Positions 1,149-25,376 of a stretch of 27,554 nucleotides of DNA are shown one piece after another; within the stretch, counting starts at the first letter, position 1; the number at the start of each line of letters is the position of its first letter. Position numbers and translations under genes: made by a program. Source of the DNA: a virus. The stretch spans positions 1-27,554 of IMG/VR virus record IMGVR_UViG_3300017598_000407. The stretch is one strand, 5' to 3'. Below the pieces are notes generated by a model. It made no database searches, was not told the DNA's origin, and saw only the letters and a program-made list of their open reading frames with translations.

Positions 1149-4100
1149 TTACATTGGTTCTAGTATAGTTAAATGTACTCTTATTGAACTATCACCTGGA
1201 GCTTGTCTTCCATCTATAATTCCGTATTTATTATTTCCAAAAGCAGCAGATCTCATAGTAATCCAAGTTGAGACACCTGAATCAAAATCTTTTGTTCTAC
1301 TTTGTATAACATTCAGATTTTGGTCATAAAGCCAATGATAATGCCATTGACTTCCAAAACTCTTTCCATAAATTCCTAGATCACCAGTGTCCATTTTCCA
1401 CATAGTAGCACCACTCCAATGACCGTATGGATTATCACTTCCTGGATCTGAGAAAGGTGGATCATCTACAGTTATGCCTTTTATTAAAGCTCCATTTGAG
1501 TCAAACTTCTTCAACATAACCTTATTCTCACCCCCGCCGTTTTCTTCAAAATATAGTAATGCAAAATTACCAGCACTCAAAGGAATTGCTGCATTTCCAT
1601 TAGCTACATCGTTGATATCACCGAAAATTGCTGAAATAGAATTCAACGAAGATATGACAGTATCGGTAACAGGATTGTACAAGGAAAATTGTATATCATT
1701 GTCATCCTCATTCTGGTATACTATTACTACTCTCCCGTTAGTCAAAGTCGTTGCCACTGGATTATGAATCTCTGCACTACCAGGAGGAGCAGCGAAGATT
1801 CCAGCAGATACTACTATACTTCCCGATGGAGACAGAATTGTATATTGACCTACATTCGTGTTATTTACGCCATATCCAAAGAAGATATTACCACCGCTCA
1901 AAGTAGTACAGCAAGCTCCATTAAAATAAGAATAAGCGGGTTCATCTGTGTAAATTGGAAATTCTGGTACTACAGTATCACCAGTAGAAGGATCTATTAT
2001 AATTCCACTTACTCCCCTTGAATCAGTATCAGTAGAAGAAGCAATACCTATGAATATATTTCCATCTTCAAGTTTACAAGAAGCAAGTTGAGTAGATCTT
2101 AGAGCGCAACAGGTAGAATCCCGTAGACTTATATTTTGGGAATAGTTATTAGATCCAACCAGATCCACATTTTTTGTCTTTATTCGTAGATTAGATGCAT
2201 TACCTAAACTACTTAAATCCTCAGTCCATGAAATAAATGCTGAGTTAGAATTTGTTATTGCTAGTCCCTGAACAGAATTACCACTAGGAGTACCAAGTCC
2301 TAGAGTATCACTATTGAAACTTTGTGAAAGTGGAGCAGAGAATTGAAGAAGTCCAGAGAAAGAAAATGAACTTGAGCTTAGAGAAGAAGAACTCTCACTA
2401 CTCGATGACTCGCTCGAAGAACTCGATGATAGTGACGAGGACGATAAGCTGCTCGAAGAGCTTGACGAACTCGACGATAAGCTGCTCGAAGACTCGCTGC
2501 TCGATGACTCGCTGCTCGATGACTCGCTTGACGATGACTCACTCGATGAGGAGAAACTCAGCGATGAACTTGACTTACTGCTCGATGAGAATGATAAACT
2601 ACTCGATGATGACGAGGAGCTAGTAGGACATATCTTACTGGTTACTGAATAAACCTCAAAGTTATCTATAGTACCCCAAACATCTTCACCAGCTAACTGC
2701 TCCCATTGTATTCTCACATAAACGTCATCTGAATCAGATACTCTAGTGATGGCTCCAGCAACTAGTCCATCATATTCCCAACCAGATGGATTAAGACCGA
2801 TAGTACCTCCATCGTTATAGAAAACTCTACTAGTAGTACCAACTCTCGTAGCTCTTAATGCACCAGCACTAACAGGTTGAGGTATTTCACCAGAAGGCCC
2901 ACTAGGTTCAACTATAAACTCGCCTCCACCAAAGGAGTATTGTTCTTTACCAAAACCATTATAGTCAGTCTCCGCTCCTTTAAAGCCCTTTACTCTCCAA
3001 ACAGATCCTACTAACGAGTCATCAGATACTTTTCTTACCTCTAGTTTCGGACAACGCTGTAGGTTCGGATTCGGGGTATTAGCTGGTTGTGAGAATTTCT
3101 TTAATGTAAAGTCAACTCTTACATCAAAATCACCCTGTAGTATGGTTCTACTGTCCATGTAAGAAGTAACAGCACCAGAAATTGGAGTAGCATTGAACTC
3201 TAACTCATTATCTTGGATTGAAACAACATTACTCGGATCTGTTAGCACCCATTTATGCCCTACAGGTTTATCTCCGTTGCTTCCTGTAAAGTCATCGTTT
3301 CCTCCGTAGAAACAAGAGGATGACGAGGAAGAAGATGAACTCTTCGATGAGCTTGATACGCTGCTCGACGAGGACGATGTTGACGAGGAGCTACTCGACG
3401 ATGACTGACTCTCCGAAGAAGAAGATTCATCCGATGAGCTTGAAAAGGAGAACGAAATCCGTGATCTGGAACTACTACTCGTCGAGGAGGAAGATTCTGA
3501 TGACGAGGATACGCTACTACTTGAGCTACTCGATGACTCGCTCGACGATGAAATAGAAGTAGAAGACATAGAGCTAGAGCTAAAAGACTTCGCCGCTGTT
3601 CTTAATCTAAAATGATTCCATATAGGTTGTGGAACTGGAAGTCTATAATGAACTCCAGTAATTGAAGGCCACAGTCCTCCCTGCGGCTGTTGATCAGGTT
3701 CCCATGATGGTGGAAAATCATGATAATAATCAACCATATCTTTTATAGCTTGTTCTAAGTTATTGCTTCTAGTTTGACTAGTAGGATCTACTTTATTAGG
3801 TCTTGCATTACTCTGACCAGCAGACAATGGCATCGGATGAGCAGCAGCAACTACGCATTGATCTGGTGTTCTATATCTAATATAAGTATTAAATTCAGCG
3901 GAGACAGTACCGTCACCACCAAAAGGTCTAAGATCTCCGTAGTATTCAGTACCAAAAGGCCAAGTGCCTCCCATTGAAGAATTTCTTAGTCCTCCAGGTG
4001 AATTTACCAACCCCTGGCTTATAGGATGAAGTACCGCTCCATTCTGCGGATCTTCTTGTACTTCTGAATCCATTGTACCAGTCATTACTACAAAAGCCTG

Positions 4101-7100
4101 ATACATATACTCTTTATACCAACCACTACATACATAGTTAAAATTCATTCCTAGTTGCGACCACTGTGCGCCCTCCCAAGCATTACCCCAAGTTCTATAA
4201 CCATTAGCTGGATTAAGCTCTTGATTCGCATATTTAAACGGGGCACAGTCTTCATCCCAAATTCCACGAAGCGCAAACCCTGGACTAGCTGTCCATCCAT
4301 GCATACCTTGAAAAGAATTAAGAGGTTCACTACTATAAGTAACATTACCCAATGGAGTAACAATCTCAAAGTTTAAATCATAAGCATAAGCCTCACGTTC
4401 ATAACTTTCTTCTCCTTTTGGTGGGCAGATCGAACAAGTACTATTCATGGCTTCGTTATAAGAATCATATTCGTGACGACCATGTATAGTAAAATATTGA
4501 TTGTTATCATCCAACCAAAGTAACCAAGGTTGCCAGTTATCTAGTCCTACCCATAGAATTAAGTAATTAAGATTCCATGCCATACTACCATACTGAGAAA
4601 ACAATACTTCTTCCTCATCTATACCATGACAAGTAATCCTCAAATGAGCCGAACCTGGAGCATCGTTACAAGGACATCCTGGTACTGCACACCACGTAGA
4701 ATGGTAGTAACCCCACATTTTGAAACGTCCATCGGTTTCCATATCTCCAATCCCTGTATTTGGCTGTCCATCATAATAAGAGTCATAAGCATTATACCCA
4801 TACTGTGGAGGACTTAACCCTGGAGGATAACCGCTACCACACTGCCAATCATATTGTTGTATCTGCATTGACCACGGAGCTACGGTATTATGACAGAACC
4901 TTCCTTCCCCTGGCTGTCCAGTAGTAGGCCAATTATAGCGTATTGCATAAACTCTTGGAATTCCTCCCAAAAAATGCGTACCAGTAAATGCCACACCGCC
5001 GATATCACCAGAATACGGAGTATCAGTCGGTGGCCCTGCTGCTGTTGCATGAGGACTAGTAGTATCTAACCAATGCTGAAGCTGATCCCTTCTAACAGGA
5101 AAGTTTAAGTCTCCGTTACCTTGAGCATTTTCAATTTCTGCATAAGTATCGGTATCTGGATTCCATACAAAACCTACTCCATCAGTTGCCGAAGGACAAG
5201 AAGAGTATTGGTTAGGTGAGTAACTCGCACCGAAAGTTCCAACGTCTGCATCAGGATTAGATCCCATGAAGAAGAGTATTCCTTCCATACCAAATGATAT
5301 AGAATCACTGCTCGATGAGGAAAAGCTACTCGATGAACTAAGTGAGGAACTCGATGAGCTTGAACTCGATGACTCGCTGCTGCTGGAACTTAATGATGAG
5401 GAGGACGATGATAGCGACGAGGAAGAACTTAGTGACGAAGATGAGAAAGATACTGACGAGGAAGAACTTAGTGAGCTTGAACTCGATGACTCGCTGCTCG
5501 ATGACGAGGAAGAAGATATAGAATGTAACCAAACATTAACCAATGGCCCAACTCCACTAGGATACCCTTCAAGTCCTCCAAATGGCGTATCTTCAAAATC
5601 ATGGAAGATAGGCCATTGACCTGGAGTACATCCAGTTTCTTCAAAATGACTATAAGTTAACCGCCATGATTCTCCAGCTATAGTAACCCAACCGTTTATG
5701 GCTTCTGCAAAAATTATTTGAATATTATTATCATCTATTATAAAAATATTACTAGGCTCTATTCTTCTTGCTACATTTTTAGCGTTTTCATTACAAGTAG
5801 ATCCTTTTAAATTCTCCCATACCTGTACTACGTTATATCTACTATCCAAATTATGATTAATATTCCAAGTCTTTTTTGATATCTTCTGAATATGTAGATA
5901 AGTCGCTACTCCAGCAGAAGGAGTAGGAGCGCCAGCAGATAAAAATCTACTACCAGTAAAGAATGTATTAAAGTATCCGTTTGAATGCTCTGAATACAAA
6001 GGCACAGAAGTAGCAACCCTCTCCTCTTTTGCTGGAGGAGCTAGTAACTCATTATAAAGAACGTGCTTATTAACTGGTCTGACATACTCCCAATTTCTAA
6101 TTAATTCGTCAGCAATGAATTTATTGATAATAAAATCTTGACCCTCGAAAAGAGTATCGAAAGGAGTAACATCAATCAAAGGCTCAGAATTGAGATCCAC
6201 CTCTACTATATAATGAGGAGTCAATACAGGATAACCAGTAGGCCCAACACTCCACGTAAGAGTAGATAGATCTATATGTTGCCTCCAGACCTTCCCATGA
6301 AACTCTCCATCTAAACCATCAGTCACTCCGTTAGCTGCATGAAGAAAAGTATAATCTGGACATGAATGCAGAGTATGAGTAATGATTTCATCTAACCTCT
6401 CTTCTCTTCTCTTACCATTATATATATAAACCTTTATAGTGCCAGCATCACAATCTCTATCAATTCCAATTCTATATCTTTTACTAACTTCATAGTCAGT
6501 CTTGCTTCCAGGAGTGGAGTAGATAGTACCTCCATACTGCTCATAAATAACAAATCTCCTAACCGCACCAACAGAATCACGCTCGAAAGCTACTCCTATC
6601 CAATCATCTGTGTCGGCTCCAAAACCAGCATAGTCATTACTCAAACCGTAGAAGATAAAACTACAATCCTGAACAGTCAAATTTGACATTGTTACTCCAG
6701 CACAATGTTCAAAGTCTCCTGAGATATACTGACCAGATAGAGATATAGTACCAGTAGAAGAATCAACACAAGGATAAGCAGATAAACCAATAGAAAAACT
6801 CTCTAGGCTTGAAATGGAAACACCCATATCTCTTGGCTCATAACAGAGAAAACTTTCCGCTGGCCCACAATCCCATATTAGAGCATTACAATCATCAACT
6901 GGCGCTTCTTGAGCATGAGTAGGATACCTATTAGGATTGAATTGAGTATACCATAAATCACCAGCGCCCCCTGAAGGCTGCTGACCATAGAATTCCAACC
7001 AGTTATAGTCATTGATAGGATAAAGATTTGGCCCGTAATAACTATAAACACCAGCAGGAAGTCCAGGATGAAAACCTGGGAATCTATCGAAAGAGGAAAA

Positions 7101-7976
7101 ATTAGCTAACGTATTAGTATCCTTCTTCCAGATATTAGGCTGACACCACTCGTCCCACCGCTCATAGACATTCATCACATTAATAGTATTAGTTAAGTAA
7201 AGTTTCCAAATGACATACAGAGCATTGAAAGTACCAATACGTTTAAGGAAGTAAATTAAATTCTCTACCCACTCACGCAAGTTTAACTCTGCCATTTGCT
7301 CATTAACTTCTATACCATAAATCTGAGCGATATAGCCTATCCACTCCATATCAATTTCTCTAGCATCCATTAAAGACCATAGAGTCTTGAGCATAGTATA
7401 TGGCTCATGATGAACTTGATCGAAGTAAACCTTTAACCATTCTACTACATCTGGAGTTTGATTATGAGGAGGTATAGCTCTTAGAGTATAGTCTTTTAAA
7501 CCTTCGAATTCTATTGCATAGAGATTATCATTGCCTCTATTACCACCGCTCCAAATTTTTCCGAAGAAAGCAAAGGTTCTTTGTTGATTGACATAATTTC
7601 GGTATTCTTCATTTTCTGATCTGGCAAGCCATGCGTGGAAAAAACTATCCTTACGGAAGTACATTTCATTACCAACATCAAATGCACTTAAAGCCATAGT
7701 TTCTGTGTCTGTACGATACTTTTTAAAATCTGAGTAAACGCCTTTATACTCCATCTCGAAGCGATTACCATCTATAGCTTGTATAAGAAACTTATGACCA
7801 ACAAACCCTTTTGTAGGATTATTCTCATAGAGAACAGTAAAGGCTCCACCATCAGTCCAGATACCACTTCTAGGGCCAGCAATAAAGGATAGTTGTGTGC
7901 CTGTCTGTCTACCTATAGAACTGGTATTAAAATATCTTTGCAGTAGGTCATAATTAGGATCTGAAAACTTTCCCAT
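1149..7976 (-). CDS. Giant modular tail/baseplate protein with three poly-serine linkers
   Basis: This 2275-residue protein starts with an ATG directly after the stop of the upstream gene (TAA then ATG), with GGAG upstream. Residues about 170-290 (W-L-x-V-Y, a 'LREWV' segment, then 'KRIGTFNALYVIWK') resemble the phage tail protein I / TIGR02242-type region that attaches to the baseplate. Residues about 450-610 look like a concanavalin/LamG-type beta sandwich. Near residue 735 a 'WNINHNLDSRYNVVQVWE' segment matches a beta domain common in phage fibres. Three serine linkers (about 819-892, 1463-1554 and 1783-1877) separate a Trp/Tyr/Cys-rich module of unknown fold (893-1460), a jelly-roll-like module (1556-1780) and a C-terminal propeller-like module (1880-2275) with repeated 'L-x-x-G-N/R-x-x-x-x-Y' strands. 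It is probably a receptor-binding or baseplate-periphery protein. The function of each module is inferred. Confidence 0.85.
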   Translation of the reverse strand: MGKFSDPNYDLLQRYFNTSSIGRQTGTQLSFIAGPRSGIWTDGGAFTVLYENNPTKGFVGHKFLIQAIDGNRFEMEYKGVYSDFKKYRTDTETMALSAFDVGNEMYFRKDSFFHAWLARSENEEYRNYVNQQRTFAFFGKIWSGGNRGNDNLYAIEFEGLKDYTLRAIPPHNQTPDVVEWLKVYFDQVHHEPYTMLKTLWSLMDAREIDMEWIGYIAQIYGIEVNEQMAELNLREWVENLIYFLKRIGTFNALYVIWKLYLTNTINVMNVYERWDEWCQPNIWKKDTNTLANFSSFDRFPGFHPGLPAGVYSYYGPNLYPINDYNWLEFYGQQPSGGAGDLWYTQFNPNRYPTHAQEAPVDDCNALIWDCGPAESFLCYEPRDMGVSISSLESFSIGLSAYPCVDSSTGTISLSGQYISGDFEHCAGVTMSNLTVQDCSFIFYGLSNDYAGFGADTDDWIGVAFERDSVGAVRRFVIYEQYGGTIYSTPGSKTDYEVSKRYRIGIDRDCDAGTIKVYIYNGKRREERLDEIITHTLHSCPDYTFLHAANGVTDGLDGEFHGKVWRQHIDLSTLTWSVGPTGYPVLTPHYIVEVDLNSEPLIDVTPFDTLFEGQDFIINKFIADELIRNWEYVRPVNKHVLYNELLAPPAKEERVATSVPLYSEHSNGYFNTFFTGSRFLSAGAPTPSAGVATYLHIQKISKKTWNINHNLDSRYNVVQVWENLKGSTCNENAKNVARRIEPSNIFIIDDNNIQIIFAEAINGWVTIAGESWRLTYSHFEETGCTPGQWPIFHDFEDTPFGGLEGYPSGVGPLVNVWLHSISSSSSSSSESSSSSSLSSSSSVSFSSSSLSSSSSLSSSSSSLSSSSSESSSSSSSSSSLSSSSSFSSSSSDSISFGMEGILFFMGSNPDADVGTFGASYSPNQYSSCPSATDGVGFVWNPDTDTYAEIENAQGNGDLNFPVRRDQLQHWLDTTSPHATAAGPPTDTPYSGDIGGVAFTGTHFLGGIPRVYAIRYNWPTTGQPGEGRFCHNTVAPWSMQIQQYDWQCGSGYPPGLSPPQYGYNAYDSYYDGQPNTGIGDMETDGRFKMWGYYHSTWCAVPGCPCNDAPGSAHLRITCHGIDEEEVLFSQYGSMAWNLNYLILWVGLDNWQPWLLWLDDNNQYFTIHGRHEYDSYNEAMNSTCSICPPKGEESYEREAYAYDLNFEIVTPLGNVTYSSEPLNSFQGMHGWTASPGFALRGIWDEDCAPFKYANQELNPANGYRTWGNAWEGAQWSQLGMNFNYVCSGWYKEYMYQAFVVMTGTMDSEVQEDPQNGAVLHPISQGLVNSPGGLRNSSMGGTWPFGTEYYGDLRPFGGDGTVSAEFNTYIRYRTPDQCVVAAAHPMPLSAGQSNARPNKVDPTSQTRSNNLEQAIKDMVDYYHDFPPSWEPDQQPQGGLWPSITGVHYRLPVPQPIWNHFRLRTAAKSFSSSSMSSTSISSSSESSSSSSSSVSSSSESSSSTSSSSRSRISFSFSSSSDESSSSESQSSSSSSSSTSSSSSSVSSSSKSSSSSSSSSCFYGGNDDFTGSNGDKPVGHKWVLTDPSNVVSIQDNELEFNATPISGAVTSYMDSRTILQGDFDVRVDFTLKKFSQPANTPNPNLQRCPKLEVRKVSDDSLVGSVWRVKGFKGAETDYNGFGKEQYSFGGGEFIVEPSGPSGEIPQPVSAGALRATRVGTTSRVFYNDGGTIGLNPSGWEYDGLVAGAITRVSDSDDVYVRIQWEQLAGEDVWGTIDNFEVYSVTSKICPTSSSSSSSSLSFSSSSKSSSSLSFSSSSESSSSESSSSESSSSESSSSLSSSSSSSSSSLSSSSLSSSSSSESSSSESSSSLSSSSFSFSGLLQFSAPLSQSFNSDTLGLGTPSGNSVQGLAITNSNSAFISWTEDLSSLGNASNLRIKTKNVDLVGSNNYSQNISLRDSTCCALRSTQLASCKLEDGNIFIGIASSTDTDSRGVSGIIIDPSTGDTVVPEFPIYTDEPAYSYFNGACCTTLSGGNIFFGYGVNNTNVGQYTILSPSGSIVVSAGIFAAPPGSAEIHNPVATTLTNGRVVIVYQNEDDNDIQFSLYNPVTDTVISSLNSISAIFGDINDVANGNAAIPLSAGNFALLYFEENGGGENKVMLKKFDSNGALIKGITVDDPPFSDPGSDNPYGHWSGATMWKMDTGDLGIYGKSFGSQWHYHWLYDQNLNVIQSRTKDFDSGVSTWITMRSAAFGNNKYGIIDGRQAPGDSSIRVHLTILEPM
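2345..2630 (-). repeat. Poly-serine linker 3 with SSSSE pentapeptide repeats
   Basis: About 95 residues. The middle has a regular run of (S4-E)n pentapeptides, and at DNA level a 15-base unit (AGC GAG TCA TCG AGC) repeats near 2489-2531. It links the jelly-roll-like module to the C-terminal propeller-like module. Confidence 0.9.
3315..3592 (-). repeat. Poly-serine linker 2 of the giant tail protein
   Basis: About 92 residues rich in Ser with scattered Met, Thr, Glu, Arg, Val, Asp and Lys. It ends just before a Cys and the 'DDFTG' start of the jelly-roll-like module. A central 'SRSRISFSF' patch is less repetitive. It acts as a spacer between the second and third folded modules. Confidence 0.9.
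5301..5525 (-). repeat. Poly-serine linker 1 of the giant tail protein
   Basis: About 74 residues are almost all Ser, broken every four to ten positions by Leu, Glu, Val or Phe. Both TCN and AGY serine codons are mixed, so the stretch is not simple single-codon slippage. It joins the N-terminal attachment module to the Trp/Tyr/Cys-rich module and is expected to be a flexible tether. Confidence 0.9.
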
Positions 7977-8306: not shown

Positions 8307-10736
8307 TTAGTACTCCTGTATCATCTTAACTGCGTCATCGGCCAATACTGGAAATTGATTTAGTCCTAGTTGTACTTGTCTCAGCATATTATCTCTATTA
8401 GTCCAGGGCTGCTCTACCCATCTTGGATAAAGACCAAACCTCGATCCAGGTTCATAGATTAATTTATTACTATTTATATCACGAATGACTATATTTCTAA
8501 TGCCTCGGATATTTTCAAATTCATCATCTGTAGACACTTCTGTAGTGTCCATTAAGAACTCTAATACATCCTTAAAATCCATCTCACTATTAAATAATTG
8601 ATTCTGTGGCCTGAAGTAGTAAATCAGTTTAGCTAGTAGATCCTGTGCTACCTCCGTGAAAACAAATGTTCTCTTTATCCTTACTCCCATCTCAAATGTG
8701 AAGTAAACCAAATCTGGAACTTCAAATATCTCATAAGCACAAATCATTTTTCTTGGAGCTAAGTAGTTAAGCAACTCTGCTTCCCATGCTGTTGAGTATT
8801 GATTTGGTAAAAGAGTAGCAGCAGACAATGACCAATCTGTTTCAAAAGAAGTCGGTCTGTTTATTCCATCATATGTGGCTGTAAAATTATCGACGTTTCC
8901 AGAACACGTCCCACCAGTTTCTTGTTCCTGAAGTATAAGAAACCACATGTCACCAGTCCAGTTTCCAATTACATACCCTGCTGAACTACCATTCCATTTC
9001 CAACTTGAATCTCCATTATCCCAACGATATGCAGTTATTACACTTCCTACTCTTGTGATTCTTAATTTTCCCGAAGCGTCTGCTGAAAGTAAATCAGTAG
9101 AACTACTAGTATTCACACCATCTGTCCAGTTAACACACCCATAACCATCGTTAATATTATTCTGAAAACGACCTATCGACCCTCGTATAGCATAACCACT
9201 ATCTATAGGATTAATCGGTCTAGTATAATCAGGGCCAGATTGACCCTCCCATAATCCCTTTGGATCTATAGACCAAAGGGATATATAAGGCATGTAGTTA
9301 GTACGAATGGATGGTGCGACAAATGAGGCAGAGTCAAACTCTAAAATAACATCAAAATCTCCTTGAAGTGCATTCAAACTAGTAAACCAACTATCTGAAT
9401 AAAATCCTGAAGAAGGATCAAAGTTTACCTTATTAGATTGAATTGAAGCATCTTGCATTTCCCTTACATCCCACCTACAGGTATTTGGAAGATCTCCATC
9501 TGTTCCTGTAAAGTCATCACTAGGATGAACATTCTGACAAGTAGAAATAGTACTATTTCCCCAAACTGTAGGAATCACGCTAAGATGTACTAAGTTATAC
9601 TCTTGAGGATTTCCAGCCGAAGGTGAGAGGTCTTGCTCACCCCAAGCATTAGCTCTTATAATATCTGATCTTGAAGACAAGTAAGAGTTATAGTCATTAG
9701 GAGTGACATCCCTAAACTGCGCTCGTAGAGCAGAAGCGGAATTAAATTTTATCTCCGTAATTGTTTCTGGATCAGCGGCTCCAATACTTGAAGCTGATAA
9801 TGAAATAGAAATATAATTATTATCAACATATTCAGGCATAGGACTAGTAGTAGGATTCCAAATCTCCATGAACTCAGAATCTAAAATAACCCAAGTCTCA
9901 TCAACATCAGCACCAATACTTCCATCAACTCCTAGAGAGTCGAGTACTCGTATATCTATACGATCATTATTATCTGGTACGTTCCTCGATGAATTAAAAA
10001 CTACTTTATTCCTCTCGTACCTATCGTAAATAAACATATAGACATTATCGGATACTTGAGGAATGAGATCCAAATAAAAATCCGAAACACGTTCCCATTC
10101 CGTTTGGAGAGTAGCAGTAGCAGGACTGACTAGTACTCTTACAGTAGGGTATACATCTGTTAAGTCATCGTCATATGAATACTGAACTGGTAGTATCAAT
10201 TCATTATCAATTAAATCGTCGCCTGAATAATTTTCCAAATCTATGACTTGCCCCTGCCTTATTGGTAGGTCAAAGACAATAGAATTACCAGAAGCAGTCA
10301 CCTCAACCGAAGCTGTAGTAGCAAATAAAATTGAATCACCATCGTCCGTTGTACGTCCAGAATTTAGAGCTTTCCAAGGAAGTACTCTTAATGTATCTCC
10401 AGGTTTAATTGGCCCCCAAGCAGGAGTACCCGTTACTGCAATAGAAACCGTAGCTCTGGCTGATCTTATTCCTTTAGGTTCATAACCTATTTGTCGAGCT
10501 AACCTGTTCGCGGCTTCATAGACATCTGCTGTTTCCAGATAAACGTTCTTCGCAATTTTATTAGTAAAGAAAGTAGTAAGCTCACCGACATAAGACATAA
10601 GTTCTATAAGGATTGAAATATTCGCACCTTCAAAATCATAGTCTCTATAAACATCACTCTCTTTTAACTCTTCCCTAAATTTGTCTACTAGAGTCAAAAA
10701 GTCAATCTCTAGGTAACTTGGTATAAATTCGGCCAT
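8307..10736 (-). CDS. Baseplate wedge protein, gp6/baseplate J-like, with inserted domain
   Basis: The 809-residue protein has the N-terminus of T4 gp6 and related baseplate J-like wedge proteins: 'SYLEIDFLTLVDKFREEL', then 'YDFEGANISILIELMSYVG' and 'ANRLARQIGYEPKG', followed by a beta-rich middle. gp6 dimers form the ring of the baseplate wedges. T4 gp6 is about 660 residues; here the excess is explained by an insertion at about residues 400-625 that begins 'DDFTGTDGD' and ends 'NVDNFTATYDG'. The same domain occurs in the giant tail protein. Wedge sequence resumes afterwards ('AWEAELLNYLAPRKMI'). GGGAG precedes the ATG. It lies 13 bases after the gp25-like gene, as expected for wedge partners. 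Confidence 0.85.
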   Translation of the reverse strand: MAEFIPSYLEIDFLTLVDKFREELKESDVYRDYDFEGANISILIELMSYVGELTTFFTNKIAKNVYLETADVYEAANRLARQIGYEPKGIRSARATVSIAVTGTPAWGPIKPGDTLRVLPWKALNSGRTTDDGDSILFATTASVEVTASGNSIVFDLPIRQGQVIDLENYSGDDLIDNELILPVQYSYDDDLTDVYPTVRVLVSPATATLQTEWERVSDFYLDLIPQVSDNVYMFIYDRYERNKVVFNSSRNVPDNNDRIDIRVLDSLGVDGSIGADVDETWVILDSEFMEIWNPTTSPMPEYVDNNYISISLSASSIGAADPETITEIKFNSASALRAQFRDVTPNDYNSYLSSRSDIIRANAWGEQDLSPSAGNPQEYNLVHLSVIPTVWGNSTISTCQNVHPSDDFTGTDGDLPNTCRWDVREMQDASIQSNKVNFDPSSGFYSDSWFTSLNALQGDFDVILEFDSASFVAPSIRTNYMPYISLWSIDPKGLWEGQSGPDYTRPINPIDSGYAIRGSIGRFQNNINDGYGCVNWTDGVNTSSSTDLLSADASGKLRITRVGSVITAYRWDNGDSSWKWNGSSAGYVIGNWTGDMWFLILQEQETGGTCSGNVDNFTATYDGINRPTSFETDWSLSAATLLPNQYSTAWEAELLNYLAPRKMICAYEIFEVPDLVYFTFEMGVRIKRTFVFTEVAQDLLAKLIYYFRPQNQLFNSEMDFKDVLEFLMDTTEVSTDDEFENIRGIRNIVIRDINSNKLIYEPGSRFGLYPRWVEQPWTNRDNMLRQVQLGLNQFPVLADDAVKMIQEY

Positions 10737-10749
10737 ATTTCTACTCCCT

Positions 10750-11133
10750 TTATCTAGTCAATACAAAATCTATCGATTGAGTATCATTCCTACCAATGAT
10801 AACAAAAGTAATCCTACAACGATAATAATTCTGATCTGGTCTAGGCTCTATATCGAATCCAGTTACTTCTATTCTCGTTTCCCATACTTCTATTGCTTCT
10901 AATAAATTCTCTGCAATTAATCTCGCAGTAACCTCATCAATAGGTTCAAAAAGTAAACCCCAAATATTAGTAGCAAAGGTAGGTAACATCCTCCGTTGAC
11001 CTTGCATAGTCAGAATGATATTCCGTAAACTATTGAATATAGCACCGACATCAACTTCTATCTTAATGTCTCCATCAGATTGTCTAGCGTAATTCTCGTC
11101 TAAGTCACTCCAAAAAAATGTTTGATTAGCCAT
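10750..11133 (-). CDS. Baseplate wedge protein, gp25/gpW family
   Basis: A 127-residue protein matching the gpW/gp25 family in length and pattern. It has 'DVGAIFNSLRNIILTMQGQR' followed by 'MLPTFATNIWGLLFEPID', then 'AIEVWETRIEVTGFDI' and a terminal beta strand 'YRCRITFVI'. The R-x-M-x-P-x-F and W-E-x-R-I positions are the family hallmarks. gp25 links the wedge to the first sheath disc and helps trigger contraction. The start overlaps the end of the upstream zinc protein by eight bases, indicating translational coupling. Confidence 0.92.
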   Translation of the reverse strand: MANQTFFWSDLDENYARQSDGDIKIEVDVGAIFNSLRNIILTMQGQRRMLPTFATNIWGLLFEPIDEVTARLIAENLLEAIEVWETRIEVTGFDIEPRPDQNYYRCRITFVIIGRNDTQSIDFVLTR

Positions 11134-11506
11134 CAGTTTTCCTCTGTGGATTAAGTACTATATCACCATCGTATTTTTTACGGGAATATCTAGAAGTATT
11201 TATCTTTTCTTGGTCAGGATTTTCAATAATTATGATCGATTCTGTATTTCTTCTCGACATTATTCTATCTTTATGCTTCAGATAATATCTTCTATTAGAT
11301 TCCTTGACTAGTTCTTTATTCTTTTTCTTCCAATCCTTATCCCGTTTTCTCTTTAGTATTCTGTAATGCTCCGTCCTTCGAGCAGCGGCATTCCTCTTCT
11401 TCTGACAGTCCTTACAATGAATCTGTTTACCATCTGGCTGGTAGCTATTATTATAGTACTTCCCTAACCTTCTATTCCTACCACAACCTGGACATATTTT
11501 TTTCAT
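11126..11506 (-). CDS. Small basic zinc-finger protein (four Cys), function unknown
   Basis: This 126-residue protein carries C5-P-x-C8 and C31-K-x-C34, a classic four-Cys zinc site with 'DGKQIHCKDCQKKR' at its second half. A long Lys/Arg-rich helix (about 36-90) follows. This N-terminal Cys arrangement is common in small phage proteins related to HNH or recombination endonuclease VII families, but no HNH catalytic core is visible here, so nuclease activity is not supported. DNA or RNA binding is the cautious inference. It shares a TAATG junction with the HxH protein upstream and overlaps the gp25-like gene by eight bases. Confidence 0.75.
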   Translation of the reverse strand: MKKICPGCGRNRRLGKYYNNSYQPDGKQIHCKDCQKKRNAAARRTEHYRILKRKRDKDWKKKNKELVKESNRRYYLKHKDRIMSRRNTESIIIIENPDQEKINTSRYSRKKYDGDIVLNPQRKTDG

Positions 11507-11730
11507 TACTCAACCGTTTTTAATTCGTGACCGTGACCATCAGGAGCGGGAATGACTACCATTGCTTTGATCTTATGCATATGACCTTTATTCCTAGAAG
11601 TACTTCCATCTCCTGACATATGTTTGATGAAGTAATCATGATCATGTCCTTTATCTTTTGTAGTCTTTCCTTTCTCCTCTCCATAATTAACAAGACTACC
11701 TGCTTCGTTTATATATTTTTTGAATTTCAT
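11506..11730 (-). CDS. Small HxH-repeat protein with capsid-targeting-like N-terminus
   Basis: The 74-residue protein begins 'MKFKKYINEA', which closely resembles the T4 internal-protein capsid-targeting peptide cleaved by the prohead protease after (L/I)-x-E (here I-N-E|A, after residue 9). The body has three HxH pairs (H29/H31, H50/H52, H66/H68) in glycine/aspartate contexts, suggesting metal binding. A strong AAGGAGT precedes the ATG by five bases. It follows the GP88-like gene after nine bases. I infer that it may be packaged inside the head. The metal-binding role is inferred from the His spacing only. Confidence 0.75.
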   Translation of the reverse strand: MKFKKYINEAGSLVNYGEEKGKTTKDKGHDHDYFIKHMSGDGSTSRNKGHMHKIKAMVVIPAPDGHGHELKTVE

Positions 11731-11739
11731 AATGACTCC

Positions 11740-13575
11740 TTATGCTGCCAATTTCTTTTTATTACCCTTGGCAAGCTGTGTATAGTCAGCAACTCTTCTA
11801 GGATTAAATCCACACGCATTAGGACACGTTTTACATTTACCTGTAGTACAACAAAGTTTAGAAAATACTTTAGGCCAATTAGCTTTGGGATGAGCTTTCT
11901 TCATTCCCTCCATAGCTTGTTTCCATCCCTTAGAACCAGCACTCATATCCTGATAAAGATCTTTATTTTTCATCCTAGAAGGAGTACCACTAAAATGCAA
12001 CAGAGTAATAACATCAACTTCTTTTTCTTTAGAATAAGCTATTGCCTCCTTTGGATTCCTAGCTACTACTCTAATGTTTACGTTACCTGGATAAACTCTT
12101 TTTAAATTTTTGGCTATCTCTAACTTAAAGCCTAGTTGCTCATCCACTGACATATTGATATTAAAAACTGGCTTCCCTTTCAAAGGCCCATCATTAAACG
12201 TCCTACCTCCGTACTTCTTAACGAACTTCTCTTGTTTAGTAATAGCCTTGAGTTGAAGACCTACTTTCTCTGCGTCTGCAATGATCCTCTCAATTTCTGT
12301 ATCCGTAGCTTCATTTTCAATGTAGTCACCAGAAGCAAAAAAACGAAGTCCTCCCATTTTATTGAACATCTCTCTATTCTTCACTCCACCTTTACTAAGG
12401 ATGACGTTACCATCTTTATCAAGTTTTGGATTTCCATCTTTATCGAGTTTCATCCACTTCTTGAAAGTATCCTGATACTTCATGCCTCTTACTTCTGCTT
12501 TAGCATATGTGTACTTTGGATTTTTAGCTTGCTGCTCTCTTCCACTTTCAACGTAGCAATAGGCACAAGTAGGATTATTAGCATCCGTGACTTTTAACTT
12601 ATCTGCTCTAGTCCGTAATTGATTTATCATTGAATCAGATGCTCCGTCCTCAATAGCATTTGTTAAGTCTGACTCAGCACTTCTCCATTCCTTGAGCATC
12701 TCTAATAACTTCTCTCGTTTAGGACATACAGTTGACATATCCACCGACGATTTAGTTTTCATGTTAGCGCCGATTGCGCTCATTTGCTCGACGCATTTCT
12801 TCAATTCATTGATGTTATTATATTGCTTTGATTGTATCTTAAACAAGTACTCCAGATATGGCCCCTCGTCAAACCAACCCTTACCAAATTTATCCTTTGC
12901 CCAAGTAAATAGCTTTTGGATATACTGATCAGTACTTTTGCCAAGTTTCATTTCTAGGTCTGGTAGACTTTTGAATTTTGCCATCATAGAAGTCAATCTC
13001 TGCTCACCTTCTTTTTGCTCTTTCTCTAGATTCTTCTGCATAGCTATAACAGCAGCAGCAAATCTTTGCTTCTCCTTATAGCTTTTAAGAGTATCGGCGT
13101 AGATCTCTTTTGTTGACTGTCCTGGCGCTCTTTTCATTCTACCCCATTGAGCATCTTGAGTCCTTTGCTGACCCGCACCATGAAGAATGTACTTACCAAT
13201 AAAAGATTTTTTAGCCAAAGAATCTAATTGAGTAAAAGCCTTTCTGGATTTTTTATTAAGATCAGCAACAGCCTTCATTACTTCTTTATCCACCTCAGAT
13301 TGATTATCCTCTGGATTTATATCTCTAGCAGCCTTGTATTCAGCAGCAGCCTCCTTACGTCTTGCCTTTTCTTCTCTAGTGATCTCATTAAGCAAAGCAA
13401 AGTGAGATAACTCATCTTCATTCAGAGCAGCGTTAATAGGATAGTACTCTCCCTCTAGTAAAGGATTCTCAAAGAACAGAAAAGTATTTTCTCCCAAAAC
13501 GACATCATTTACTTCTCTCATTTGATCTTGTAGAACATCAATATCATCGGCTGCTAAATATTTTTTTAGTTTCAT
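11740..13575 (-). CDS. GP88-like / radical-SAM-like cysteine protein
   Basis: The first 290 of 611 residues are charged and helical with no family I recognise. The C-terminal half resembles phage GP88-type, radical-SAM-related proteins: C337-x-x-C340-Y ('PTCAYCYVESGR'), then 'LRFFASGDYIE' with SGD at 415-417, 'LKAITKQEK', a strand 'FNINMSVDEQ', 'VITLLHFSG', and a terminal cluster C575, C576, C581, C584, C588 ('LCCTTGKCKTCPNACG'). In the family the Cys groups are expected to bind iron-sulphur or zinc. The usual C-x3-C-x2-C triad is not intact, so catalysis is uncertain. The N-terminus 'MKLKKYL' matches those of its neighbours but lacks the E cleavage site; an L-L-E|G lies at residues 39-42. 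ATGA overlap with the nucleotidyltransferase upstream, and an AAGGAGT ribosome binding site. Confidence 0.7.
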   Translation of the reverse strand: MKLKKYLAADDIDVLQDQMREVNDVVLGENTFLFFENPLLEGEYYPINAALNEDELSHFALLNEITREEKARRKEAAAEYKAARDINPEDNQSEVDKEVMKAVADLNKKSRKAFTQLDSLAKKSFIGKYILHGAGQQRTQDAQWGRMKRAPGQSTKEIYADTLKSYKEKQRFAAAVIAMQKNLEKEQKEGEQRLTSMMAKFKSLPDLEMKLGKSTDQYIQKLFTWAKDKFGKGWFDEGPYLEYLFKIQSKQYNNINELKKCVEQMSAIGANMKTKSSVDMSTVCPKREKLLEMLKEWRSAESDLTNAIEDGASDSMINQLRTRADKLKVTDANNPTCAYCYVESGREQQAKNPKYTYAKAEVRGMKYQDTFKKWMKLDKDGNPKLDKDGNVILSKGGVKNREMFNKMGGLRFFASGDYIENEATDTEIERIIADAEKVGLQLKAITKQEKFVKKYGGRTFNDGPLKGKPVFNINMSVDEQLGFKLEIAKNLKRVYPGNVNIRVVARNPKEAIAYSKEKEVDVITLLHFSGTPSRMKNKDLYQDMSAGSKGWKQAMEGMKKAHPKANWPKVFSKLCCTTGKCKTCPNACGFNPRRVADYTQLAKGNKKKLAA

Positions 13576-15005
13576 GGTGCTATACTCCTTATATAGTCAT
13601 CGATTTTTTCTTTATCGGATACATCGTTATTCATGATCCATTCAGTAGTTTTCCTAACAACATCTCCTAGCGGTTTTCCAGGCTTCATACCTGTGATTGC
13701 CATAACGTGTTTTCCATCGACAAGTTTAAGACGCTTCCCTACTTCCTTAGTACCGTATTTTTCTTTAATCTTTATAGCTTTGTCAATTATCTTCTCAAAC
13801 TCTCCAGCCTTCTTGAATGCCTCACCTCTGGAATACTCGTCTGCCTTTCCCACAGCAGCAAGTACATCCCAATTATCATCATTGACTAGCTTGGCAACTT
13901 TAGCTGGTTTCATATCAAGTATTAAATGGAACTTCATATGATTACCTACAGCAAAGATAACAGCATCCCTATCCTTATTACTCAGCTTTAATCTGTCAGC
14001 TATAGCGTCTACTAGCTTTATACTTTTCTCTGCGTGTCGGTAGTATGTAGGAGTCCCATGCGTTTTTTGTGGAGCAAAAGTAACCCCCTTACCAACATCA
14101 TGCAGAAGTATAGCAAGGTTTTTAATTGGATCTTTAGTATCGCTCTTTTTAAGTGCTGCCATAACATGACTGAATACCGTCCCTCCATGTCCTCTGGTTT
14201 CTGGATGGTGCTGGAGATTTTCCCTAAACCATTTTAAATTCATTATCTCTGGAAGTATATGCTTTAATATCTTCAACTCAGCTAGTGTCTCAATATAATT
14301 CGCAAACTTCTCACCGCTCTGAGCAGCCGATTTTAGTAGCTCTTCTCTTACTCTCTCTATAGAAAGCCCCTGAATATTCGGAGAAAGTTTTTGTGCTGCC
14401 TTCTTAGTCTTAGGCTCGATATCAAAATCCAACTTTGATTTAAATCTTGCTAGTCTCATCATTCGCAAGTAGTCTTCTCCAAATCTTTTAAGCGGATCTC
14501 CTACCGTCCTCAAGACCTTATTCTTTATATCCTTCCTACCGTCAAAGTGATCTATGATCTCACCCTTCGCATTTAAACCCATTGCATTGATAGTAAAGTC
14601 TCTTCTTCCAGCATCAGCTTCAAATGATCCAGTTACGGTAACTAACTCTGGTCTACGCCCATCGGCATACTTTCCATCTAATCTAAACTGAGCTACCTCA
14701 AAATCAAACCCACCAGCTTTAACGACTACTATACCAAAGTCTCTTGACTTTCCTATGTCATAAGTCTTGAACATCTTAGAAAGTTCATCTACTGGCATAT
14801 TGGTAGCAATGTCTATATCATGAGGTTTAAGATTTCCCAGGATTATATCACGCACCGATCCACCTACAATATAGGCTTTGTATCCTTTCTTGTTAATCTT
14901 ATCCAAGATAGATACTCCTGCCTGTAGCTCTTTATTCCTACGTATATAAGTCTGCCAATCCTTCAACTGTTGTCTCGCTTCTGTTAGATAATGTTTTAGT
15001 CTCAA
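13572..15005 (-). CDS. CCA-adding enzyme / poly(A) polymerase-like nucleotidyltransferase with HD domain
   Basis: 477 residues. It carries the bacterial (class II) tRNA nucleotidyltransferase signature: GGSVRD (48-53), catalytic D63-I-D65 in 'HDIDIAT', RRDFTINAM (134-142) and the nucleotide-selecting region 'GEDYLRMMRLARF' (176-188). A C-terminal HD phosphohydrolase domain has H302-D303 in 'LLHDVGKG' and H324. All key residues are present, so an active enzyme adding CCA or A residues to RNA 3' ends is likely. The start is TTG at 15003-15005: GAGGT lies seven bases upstream, and the stop of the preceding gene overlaps (TTGA). That start gives 'MRLKHYLTEA', a capsid-targeting-like peptide with an L-T-E|A cleavage site. 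Its place inside a baseplate operon is odd for an RNA enzyme and fits an injected protein. Confidence 0.88.
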   Translation of the reverse strand: MRLKHYLTEARQQLKDWQTYIRRNKELQAGVSILDKINKKGYKAYIVGGSVRDIILGNLKPHDIDIATNMPVDELSKMFKTYDIGKSRDFGIVVVKAGGFDFEVAQFRLDGKYADGRRPELVTVTGSFEADAGRRDFTINAMGLNAKGEIIDHFDGRKDIKNKVLRTVGDPLKRFGEDYLRMMRLARFKSKLDFDIEPKTKKAAQKLSPNIQGLSIERVREELLKSAAQSGEKFANYIETLAELKILKHILPEIMNLKWFRENLQHHPETRGHGGTVFSHVMAALKKSDTKDPIKNLAILLHDVGKGVTFAPQKTHGTPTYYRHAEKSIKLVDAIADRLKLSNKDRDAVIFAVGNHMKFHLILDMKPAKVAKLVNDDNWDVLAAVGKADEYSRGEAFKKAGEFEKIIDKAIKIKEKYGTKEVGKRLKLVDGKHVMAITGMKPGKPLGDVVRKTTEWIMNNDVSDKEKIDDYIRSIAP

Positions 15006-15529
15006 GGTAGATACCTCGTATAGATTTCTTGTACTTGCTCTGTTTTATCTTTATTTTTATTGACTATTGATTTCCCTGTGTTCACGCTATCCCTAGTAGG
15101 TTTAATACCATAGGTTCCATCAGTTCCTAACTCTTGCCAGATATGATTGTATGCCGCAGCAAAATCTGATACTCTAGTTATTTGATCGGTATCAGTAACA
15201 TCGGCATTTTTATATACCACTTTATGAGGTGCTGGAGGACATCCTCCACTTACTATAGCCCAATCTGTCAAATTAGTAACTCCGTAACCTCCAGAAGTAC
15301 AAACACTACAAGTTCCTCCACAAGAACCTACTCCTAAATCAAGTGACTTCTGAGCTAAGAAAGCATCCGAATCCGTTGTAGCTGTAGCCATTACTACATT
15401 CTCTATTGCTTCTCTTTGCTCCTGTAAATCTGCTGCTATTGCAGTAAGCTCCGTAATCGAGTCCTCTTGATTTTGAATCTGCTCTGGATATCCATCCACC
15501 ATTTCTTGTAATTTTGTTGCATCACTCAT
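15002..15529 (-). CDS. Unknown tail-tip-region protein with coiled coil and Cys motif
   Basis: I start this gene at the ATG at 15527-15529 because AGGAGG lies seven bases upstream and the PAAR gene stops two bases before; an upstream TTG at 15568 would overlap the PAAR gene and lacks an SD. This gives 175 residues. Residues about 3-45 are heptad-like helical. A Cys-rich 'SCGGTCSVCTSGG' follows near the centre, then a mixed C-terminal region. I do not recognise the family. Position directly after the PAAR tip suggests a spike- or tip-associated structural part. Metal binding through the C-x3-C-x2-C cluster is possible. Confidence 0.7.
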   Translation of the reverse strand: MSDATKLQEMVDGYPEQIQNQEDSITELTAIAADLQEQREAIENVVMATATTDSDAFLAQKSLDLGVGSCGGTCSVCTSGGYGVTNLTDWAIVSGGCPPAPHKVVYKNADVTDTDQITRVSDFAAAYNHIWQELGTDGTYGIKPTRDSVNTGKSIVNKNKDKTEQVQEIYTRYLP

Positions 15530-15530
15530 T

Positions 15531-15839
15531 TTAGCCTCCTGTTGACACGTTACCAGAACCAGTAACAATGGTTCCGAAAAAACATCCTGTGAAGTAACTA
15601 GTTAGCCTTGCCGCTGGTAAGCCATTACTAAACACGTTACTAGATCCGCTGACGATTATTCCAGTATGACCACATTGACCTAGTACTACATCTGTCATTC
15701 GTCCAGATCCTAAAGTGTTTCCGAATACAGTAGGAGATCCAGTCACGATGATCCCTGTCATTGGTATACAATCTGGTGAACTATGACAGCAACACGTTCC
15801 TACTCCTACATCTGTTAGTCTTCCAAAAGGCAATCCCAT
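15531..15839 (-). CDS. PAAR-like spike tip protein
   Basis: The 102-residue, glycine-rich protein is built of quasi-repeats 'GIIVTGSPTVF-G-N', 'GIIVSGSSNVF-S-N' and 'IVTGSGNV', each followed by an 'R-L/M-T' turn and a Cys/His (C16-C17-C18-H19, C56/H58, C86). This is the PAAR pattern: a three-fold cone that caps the T4 gp5 or VgrG spike and binds a metal ion near its tip (T4 gp5.4 counterpart). It sits one gene downstream of the spike gene, with a TAATG junction to the gene between them. A true PAAR tetrapeptide is replaced by 'PAARLT' at residues 75-80, so even the name-giving motif is present. Confidence 0.9.
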   Translation of the reverse strand: MGLPFGRLTDVGVGTCCCHSSPDCIPMTGIIVTGSPTVFGNTLGSGRMTDVVLGQCGHTGIIVSGSSNVFSNGLPAARLTSYFTGCFFGTIVTGSGNVSTGG

Positions 15840-24588: not shown

Positions 24589-24774
24589 TTAGTATCCCTC
24601 CTTACCTTTTTGCGCCCACTTCTTACCTTTTAAGTGGAAAGTATTACTAGAAATTATCTTCTCTGCTACCTCTCCACAGTGTCTACACTTAGCTGTCTTC
24701 ACGTCTTTAGTAATATCATGAGACTCTGATGTTAACTTATTACACTTTTCACACATATATTCATAAATAGCCAT
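24589..24774 (-). CDS. FmdB-like zinc ribbon protein, 61 residues
   Basis: Starts 'MAIYEYMCEKCNKLTSES' and continues with 'AKCRHCGEVAEKIISSNTFHLKG', the pattern of the FmdB/CxxC regulatory zinc ribbon family (M-x-I-Y-E-Y-x-C-x-x-C, then C-x-x-C-G, then a hydrophobic 'KIIS'). TAATG junction with the gene upstream. It forms a tandem pair with the 87-residue ribbon. Confidence 0.85.
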   Translation of the reverse strand: MAIYEYMCEKCNKLTSESHDITKDVKTAKCRHCGEVAEKIISSNTFHLKGKKWAQKGKEGY

Positions 24775-25376
24775 TATCTTTTCCTCCTAGCTAGTAGTCC
24801 TACATTACCGAGTTTAACCTTTGGTAGTTCAGGAAGACTGAAAACCATTTGATCAAATAACTCTAGATCAAATGATTTAGCTTCTATTGAGAATAGCTTA
24901 ACATAGCATGTATTATCTTGTAAAGCAAGAGAAAATTTAGAAAAGCACTCATTCATTTTTTTCAAGAAATCCTTATTGAAAAAATAATCTATCATGATGA
25001 AATCCATATCACCTTCACGTAGTATAAAAACTCCCCCAGGTTTGAAGGCTATATCTTCTCGTATCTTCTTCAATGACTTGATAAGTTTATCCCGCTTATA
25101 CTCTCCTTCAACGGATGCCATTGTGAGATAAGGATTTATTGCTTCGTATGCTATGTTGTATCGGATAAGCCATGACTTGATATAATCAAAGGTTCTTTTT
25201 AACTGTAGCTTACTCAAGCCGTATCCTATGGAAGTCTCTACAATGTAAGGTTTATCACGCCTAGCAACCGTATCATAGAAGTCTTCCTCTGTCGGCCCTA
25301 ATGGAGTCTCTACAATTTTTTTCTCGATATCCTTTTTCTTATATCCAGACTCACCTACATATTCGCTAAATTTCAT
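24774..25376 (-). CDS. Unknown 200-residue protein with capsid-targeting-like start
   Basis: Begins 'MKFSEYVGESGYKKKD', which resembles the starts of the HxH protein and the nucleotidyltransferase but has V-G-E|S instead of the (L/I)-x-E|A site. The remainder alternates helices and strands ('QLKRTFDYIKSWLIRY', 'MDFIMIDYFF'). No catalytic motif is visible. The gene overlaps the heptosyltransferase-like gene by 11 bases. Confidence 0.75.
   Translation of the reverse strand: MKFSEYVGESGYKKKDIEKKIVETPLGPTEEDFYDTVARRDKPYIVETSIGYGLSKLQLKRTFDYIKSWLIRYNIAYEAINPYLTMASVEGEYKRDKLIKSLKKIREDIAFKPGGVFILREGDMDFIMIDYFFNKDFLKKMNECFSKFSLALQDNTCYVKLFSIEAKSFDLELFDQMVFSLPELPKVKLGNVGLLARRKR

Follow-up and report, generated by a model that had tools for sequence, protein, structure and literature searches.

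Otherwise unrelated proteins encoded by a viral DNA fragment and its relatives begin with a common short peptide (consensus M[KR][FL]KxY[LI]xE, hereafter the tag), which is very probably a capsid-targeting sequence (CTS) of the phage T4 type. The best reading of the sequences is that these uncultured T4-like phages carry an expanded T4-type internal-protein cargo system, with an island of cargo genes placed between baseplate genes, and that the tagged proteins would be packaged, cleaved and injected. The DNA analysed here, which we refer to as the window, is the whole of record IMGVR_UViG_3300017598_000407, a viral fragment of 27,554 nt. It contains a three-gene cassette flanked by T4-like baseplate and tail genes, with PAAR, gp5-like and other genes upstream and gp25 and gp6 downstream, which confirms the placement of the cassette within the baseplate operon by an earlier note on this DNA. 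The features of the locus are listed below.

10750-11133, minus strand: gp25-like baseplate wedge protein, untagged downstream flank (phrog_261, 3e-34; 0 of 11 homologues tagged)
11126-11506, minus strand: endonuclease VII-like ORF, untagged, downstream edge of the cargo island (phrog_1035, 9e-8; 12 of 12 homologues untagged)
11506-11730, minus strand: His-rich (HxH) protein of 74 aa, MKFKKYINEAGS (homologue MKLKKYLEE in L005 and L008)
11704-11730, minus strand: predicted capsid-targeting peptide of the HxH protein, codons 1-9, MKFKKYINE, with cleavage predicted before A10 (from sequence and motif class)
11740-13575, minus strand: cysteine-rich protein of 611 aa, MKLKKYLAADDIDV (conserved in relatives)
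13513-13575, minus strand: predicted long-form targeting peptide of the 611-aa protein, codons 1-21, MKLKKYLAADDIDVLQDQMRE, with cleavage predicted before V22 (from the IDE/IRE sites of relatives and analogy to T4 IPI)
13572-15005, minus strand: nucleotidyltransferase (NT) of 477 aa with a TTG start, MRLKHYLTEARQQ; tRNA nucleotidyltransferase / poly(A) polymerase family with a C-terminal HD domain, the constant cargo gene (PolyA_pol, 2e-31; phrog_2244, 7e-77; 29 of 29 tagged)
14979-15005, minus strand: predicted capsid-targeting peptide of NT, codons 1-9, MRLKHYLTE, with cleavage predicted before A10 (from sequence and T4 IPIII CTS spacing)
15002-15568, minus strand: untagged ORF, upstream edge of the island (from position; 0 of 6 homologues tagged)

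The N-termini of NT (MRLKHYLTE) and of the HxH protein (MKFKKYINE), each followed by alanine, are present as the earlier note had read them. That note had placed the motif on all three cassette genes; the 611-aa protein does start MKLKKYL (MKLKKYLAADD) but lacks a glutamate at position 9, so the full short motif is found on only two of the three. Coupling of the genes by overlaps likewise holds in part: there is an overlap of 4 nt between the NT and 611-aa genes and one of 1 nt between the 74-aa gene and the ORF after it, whereas a 9-nt gap separates the 611-aa gene from the 74-aa gene. The name GP88-like that had been given to the 611-aa protein is not borne out, since neither the window protein nor two relatives had a meaningful Pfam match at E values up to 10. 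In Pfam, the HxH protein has a YmaF match below cut-off only, and its C-terminus resembles that of phrog_15223, which is annotated 'protease' (E 1.7e-4). Elsewhere in the window, a 200-aa protein outside the cassette (24774-25376, minus strand) has the tag-like start MKFSEYVGESG, and a 2,275-aa protein with hardly any family match is encoded downstream of the baseplate wedge genes (1149-7976, minus strand).

As the window is a fragment and no head genes were found in its 27.5 kb, the genome-wide test of the motif was made in relatives. Searches found 7 loci with the 611-aa protein as query and 37 with NT, in records of up to 161.6 kb; no relatives were obtained with the gp5-like protein as bait. 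Because L002, L003, L004, L009, L010 and L032 are near-identical, family counts use distinct proteins. Our strict tag pattern, M[KR].[KRED].[YF][LIVM].E, was picked after the motif had been seen, and the control was run with the identical pattern. In five records it matched 25 of 890 called gene starts compared to none of 3,474 internal methionines (Fisher p = 4e-18), and 19 open frames that begin with a strict tag are scattered over both strands of record G022 (161.6 kb). At least 47 families carry the strict tag and are mutually unrelated outside it. A looser pattern raises the number of tagged proteins to 137; these form 75 families between which no similarity is detectable past the tag. 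The looser pattern also catches some false positives (apparently an internal start of SpoVR, and coiled-coil proteins), and our claims therefore rest on the strict pattern.

The tags end in Y/F-L/I-x-E, and the commonest residues after the glutamate are A, G, S, D or K. In the phrog_11975 family, whose members share 29-41% identity, few alignment columns are invariant, and M1, Y6 and E9 of the tag belong to them. No strict tag occurs in the examined segments of T4, of a cyanophage and of Caulobacter phage Cr30, while the T4 pattern recovers IPI-III; a second tag class, I[DE]..[LIFY][LIM].E, had no N-terminal occurrence. Another flavour of the tag, M-D-L-[VI]-[ED]-K-Y-L-x-E, is one residue longer, as in T4 (L006:11081-11278, L012:13252-13467 and L011:11428-11610). 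One 509-aa protein (L028:7981-9510) starts MKFQKYLTEK and contains a second, internal SKLEKYLTEKW; its sequence suggests that cargo units have been fused here and are separated by a cleavage site.

The island extends from an upstream ORF of the baseplate operon to the untagged endonuclease VII-like gene and gp25, and its order relative to its baseplate neighbours is conserved. NT is its constant member, and the remaining genes vary by phage and are mostly tagged; in L041, the majority of a run of ~15 genes carry the tag. The small endonuclease VII-like protein of the window adjoins gp25 in most relatives. Tagged genes sit among late structural genes, and yet none of the ~80 tail and baseplate homologues neighbouring the island is tagged, indicating that the tag is no general mark of late genes. 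Almost no T4-like late-promoter box was found within 100 nt of tagged genes (0 of 15 in G022), most of which lie inside operons.

The constant member has PolyA_pol (PF01743, 2e-31), RNA-binding (PF12627, 1.5e-12) and HD domains, and its phrog_2244 match places it with phage tRNA nucleotidyltransferases. We read NT N-termini directly, as the automatic start caller had missed several tagged NT starts. All 29 readable NT N-termini carry the tag, and in 23 of these an alanine follows the glutamate; the NT of L042 has a tag of T4 length, MKTFKQYLVE, followed by A. A distant NT homologue in a bacterial genome (L160) is without the tag. Among cellular genomes there was a single close match, a contig assigned to a Thermoplasmata archaeon MAG (L158); it has a tagged array together with NT and is probably a misbinned virus. 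NT was found in none of 14 capsid-carrying records, so many members of the clade either do without it or are incomplete.

In some relatives NT is split, at about one position in three groups of contigs. In L005, L008 and L035 the interruption falls near residue 270 and holds a gene for a GIY-YIG endonuclease; in L008 this gene (8579-9274) lies within NT at a conserved HHPETRG site. Both halves are tagged in this group (N-half MKFEKYLIEN, C-half MKYREYLSEI) and in L036, L037 and L039 (N-half MRLENYLNEN, C-half MRLMNFINEQ); the second half in L040 has only a weak version of the tag (MNRTLNES). As the break position is common to both groups, the split was perhaps a single event, and the tags on the second halves nevertheless differ. 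The presence of a tag on both halves points to a sorting signal, because a tag that was part of the fold would not reappear on the second half.

The 611-aa protein shares 58-68% identity across 7 aligned relatives, which either start MRFKDFMTE or have a later site before the conserved core (IDE|A in L006, L007, L008, L012 and L018; IRE|V in L002). In the window protein the candidate site follows MRE at residues 19-21 and precedes V, with Met rather than Leu or Ile at the proposed P3; its N-terminus thus would fit the long form known from T4 IPI. The protein had no match in Pfam, PHROGs or a PDB sequence search. Its AlphaFold model has a pLDDT of 56, and the best Foldseek match, viperin, is not significant (E 0.07). 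Given the poor model and this non-significant match, a possible TIM-barrel or radical-SAM-like fold for the C-terminal half is a weak hint only.

By Pfam and PHROG matches, the tagged proteins comprise, among others, a zeta-toxin-like P-loop kinase, HAD enzymes of the 5' nucleotidase and acid-phosphatase types, a J-domain, a cytidylyltransferase-like protein, an ATP-grasp enzyme and a cyclic-phosphate-processing cREC domain. Roles in RNA repair or in removal of ADP-ribose signals have been proposed for cREC domains (PMC7824862, PMC9503650). A phrog_11975 model (pLDDT 82) had no Foldseek match in the PDB, and its four top VIA rows are ART-type enzymes, weak at Z 2.7-4.9. The functions to which the cargo points form a theme, not a proof.

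If the tag is a CTS, a prohead protease of matching specificity would be expected to act on it. G009 and G022, both long records with NT, encode a Peptidase_S77/gp21 prohead protease (2e-31 and 9e-29), and Peptidase_S77 was also found in T4 and other controls. The clade protease aligns with T4 gp21 at GEL-HPP and SSRGLGS, the His and Ser motifs. The window and the short relatives, all of which are fragments, had no PF03420 match, and no protease match was found in the examined part of G010 and G011. The head module of G022 follows the T4 order of portal, gp67-like, protease, scaffold and capsid genes; among small ORFs between the protease and scaffold genes, one is tagged (MNFEKYLTEA). In 77 of 80 capsid relatives, an x-L/M/I-x-E site separates a conserved prodomain from the capsid body, with x an aromatic residue or His in 72 of them; the residue after the site is T, A, G, Q or S, and we infer that the capsid proteins may be cut there. 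In T4, the gp21-type protease shreds the scaffold protein. As expected from this, the scaffold gp22 of the clade contains [LI]xE at 5.0 per 100 aa compared to 1.2 in the proteome, a ~4-fold enrichment. The earlier note had looked to a prohead protease and to further tagged proteins as the test of its proposal, and both were found in relatives (G009, G022 and others). Together with the end motif of the capsid proteins and the tags on both halves of split NT, they support its capsid-targeting reading.

The T4 tag had been described as nearly identical to that of the window, whereas T4 IPIII starts MKTYQEFIAE before A; what is alike is the spacing. The first 10 residues of IPIII are sufficient, with residues 4 and 7 needed for targeting and residues 8 and 10 for processing, and T4 gp21 cuts after L/I-X-E (PMC9026906). 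The F/L3-x-x-Y6-L/I7-x-E9 of the clade has the IPIII spacing one residue earlier; the clade tag is usually one residue shorter, and the L042 NT is in the T4 register. In the window, (L/I)-x-E is present as LTE in NT and INE in the HxH protein, and the 611-aa protein has M-R-E. T4 also has a 19-residue form in IPI, MKTFKEFTSTTTPVSTITE, which ends in ITE and is followed by A, so that the 10-residue (IPII/III) and long (IPI) forms would both have counterparts in the clade. In T4 IPI, IPII and IPIII (and Alt), as in the clade, a short N-terminal peptide with an (L/I)-x-E end is found on otherwise unrelated proteins in the company of a gp21-type protease. The two differ in that the clade has dozens of cargo families where T4 has a handful, that its cargo includes large enzymes such as the tRNA nucleotidyltransferase, and that its main island is in the baseplate operon and not at ip loci. 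Packaging has been demonstrated for T4 and is predicted for the clade.

An analogous L-x-E tag is found in the 490-kb Agrobacterium jumbo phage Atu_ph07 (L163, NC_042013), which has a gp21-type protease and in which relatives of phrog_11975 form the array gp053-gp063. Several of these eleven neighbouring genes are paralogues, and nearly all of the eleven start M[RK]WxQL[TN]E or similar (MRWEQLTE, MKWEQLTE, MRWHQLNE and alike). This tag is shorter than that of the clade, at 8 residues, and contains Trp; as in the clade, a cargo family is tagged, here in a cluster that cluster-level MS indicates is rich in virion proteins. The array lies within CDS 31-76, of which MS detected 29 proteins in virions, a count for the whole cluster, where just two had been predicted as structural beforehand; the text of that study does not name gp053-gp063 among the 29 (PMC6102473). 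Fusion of enzymes to structural domains in MuF and polyvalent proteins (PMC9503650) is likewise a route for packaging enzymes for injection, for which the clade would instead use a removable 9-residue tag. Phages phiKZ and SPN3US resemble the clade in that many head-packaged, protease-processed proteins are delivered to the cell, and the phiKZ cleavage motif differs in being S/A-x-E (PMC9026906). To our knowledge, neither phiKZ nor SPN3US has a short common N-terminal consensus of the clade's kind.

We considered other explanations for the shared N-terminus. The genomes are AT-rich and have many Lys codons, so lysine-rich N-termini could resemble each other by chance; residue-shuffled N-termini, however, give a mean of ~0.03 strict tags per genome, compared to up to 15 among called genes and 19 among open frames, and this, with the lack of any match at internal methionines, rules out chance resemblance, whose probability is practically nil. 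That genes of the island are swapped, and that the tags of neighbours are alike, would fit a DNA- or RNA-level element (a translation operator or recombination site) that serves gene shuffling and has no peptide function. Such an element is very unlikely, as codons within the tag vary synonymously (Tyr TAT/TAC 30/13, Phe TTT/TTC, and several for Leu) with residues 6, 7 and 9 fixed, and the DNA upstream of tagged genes is not conserved; it is thus the peptide that is kept.

Two further explanations accept that the peptide is functional. It might address proteins to the tail or baseplate, for action at the cell surface or delivery via the tail tip, as the position of the island between baseplate genes in conserved order would suggest. 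We regard this as improbable, because the baseplate proteins are themselves untagged, the end motif of the tag is that of the presumed cleavage site of capsid proteins, and tagged genes of G022 are also found far from the baseplate operon, at 48-57 kb, at 92-97 kb near terminase and at 105-112 kb within the head module, which is evidence against a tail signal. The tag might also be a common N-terminal helix that serves intracellular localisation, degradation or partner docking, with no packaging into the head. Short amphipathic helices could have such roles, and tagged genes are scarce in some long relatives (1-2 strict tags in G010 and G011). This explanation is also improbable, as it leaves unexplained the [LI]xE end with its following Ala, Gly or Ser, the presence of a gp21 protease, the corresponding site in capsid proteins and the T4 spacing.

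For the capsid-targeting reading, we propose the following course of events. During head assembly, the hydrophobic or aromatic residues 3 and 6 of the tag would bind the prohead core, so that the tagged proteins become enclosed. The gp21-type prohead protease would cut after (L/I)-x-E and free the mature proteins within the head, and these would reach the host along with the DNA. The cargo would be drawn from the variable island between baseplate genes, with NT as its constant member. Speculatively, an injected NT, which combines a nucleotidyltransferase with an HD phosphohydrolase, could maintain or mend the 3' ends of tRNA when infection begins and so counter host defences that target tRNA; alternatively, it could work on tRNAs of the phage itself or on other RNA.

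Each of the three internal proteins of T4 inhibits a distinct GmrSD restriction enzyme (PMC12373910). A wider proposal, on which our confidence is evenly balanced, is that the CTS is a general, transferable delivery tag and that the heads carry a large, swappable set of enzymes (NT/HD, kinase, phosphatase, J-domain, ART-like), which would act as the DNA enters and forestall defences based on tRNA or nucleotides ahead of any phage gene expression. If this is true, the N-terminus would be a readable list of the proteins that a phage injects, and the injected proteins of uncultured phages would be predictable from sequence alone. This would single out dozens of uncharacterised proteins as candidates for early roles in anti-defence or takeover, a set far larger than the three of T4, and delivery of tRNA-processing enzymes by phages at time zero would become directly testable.
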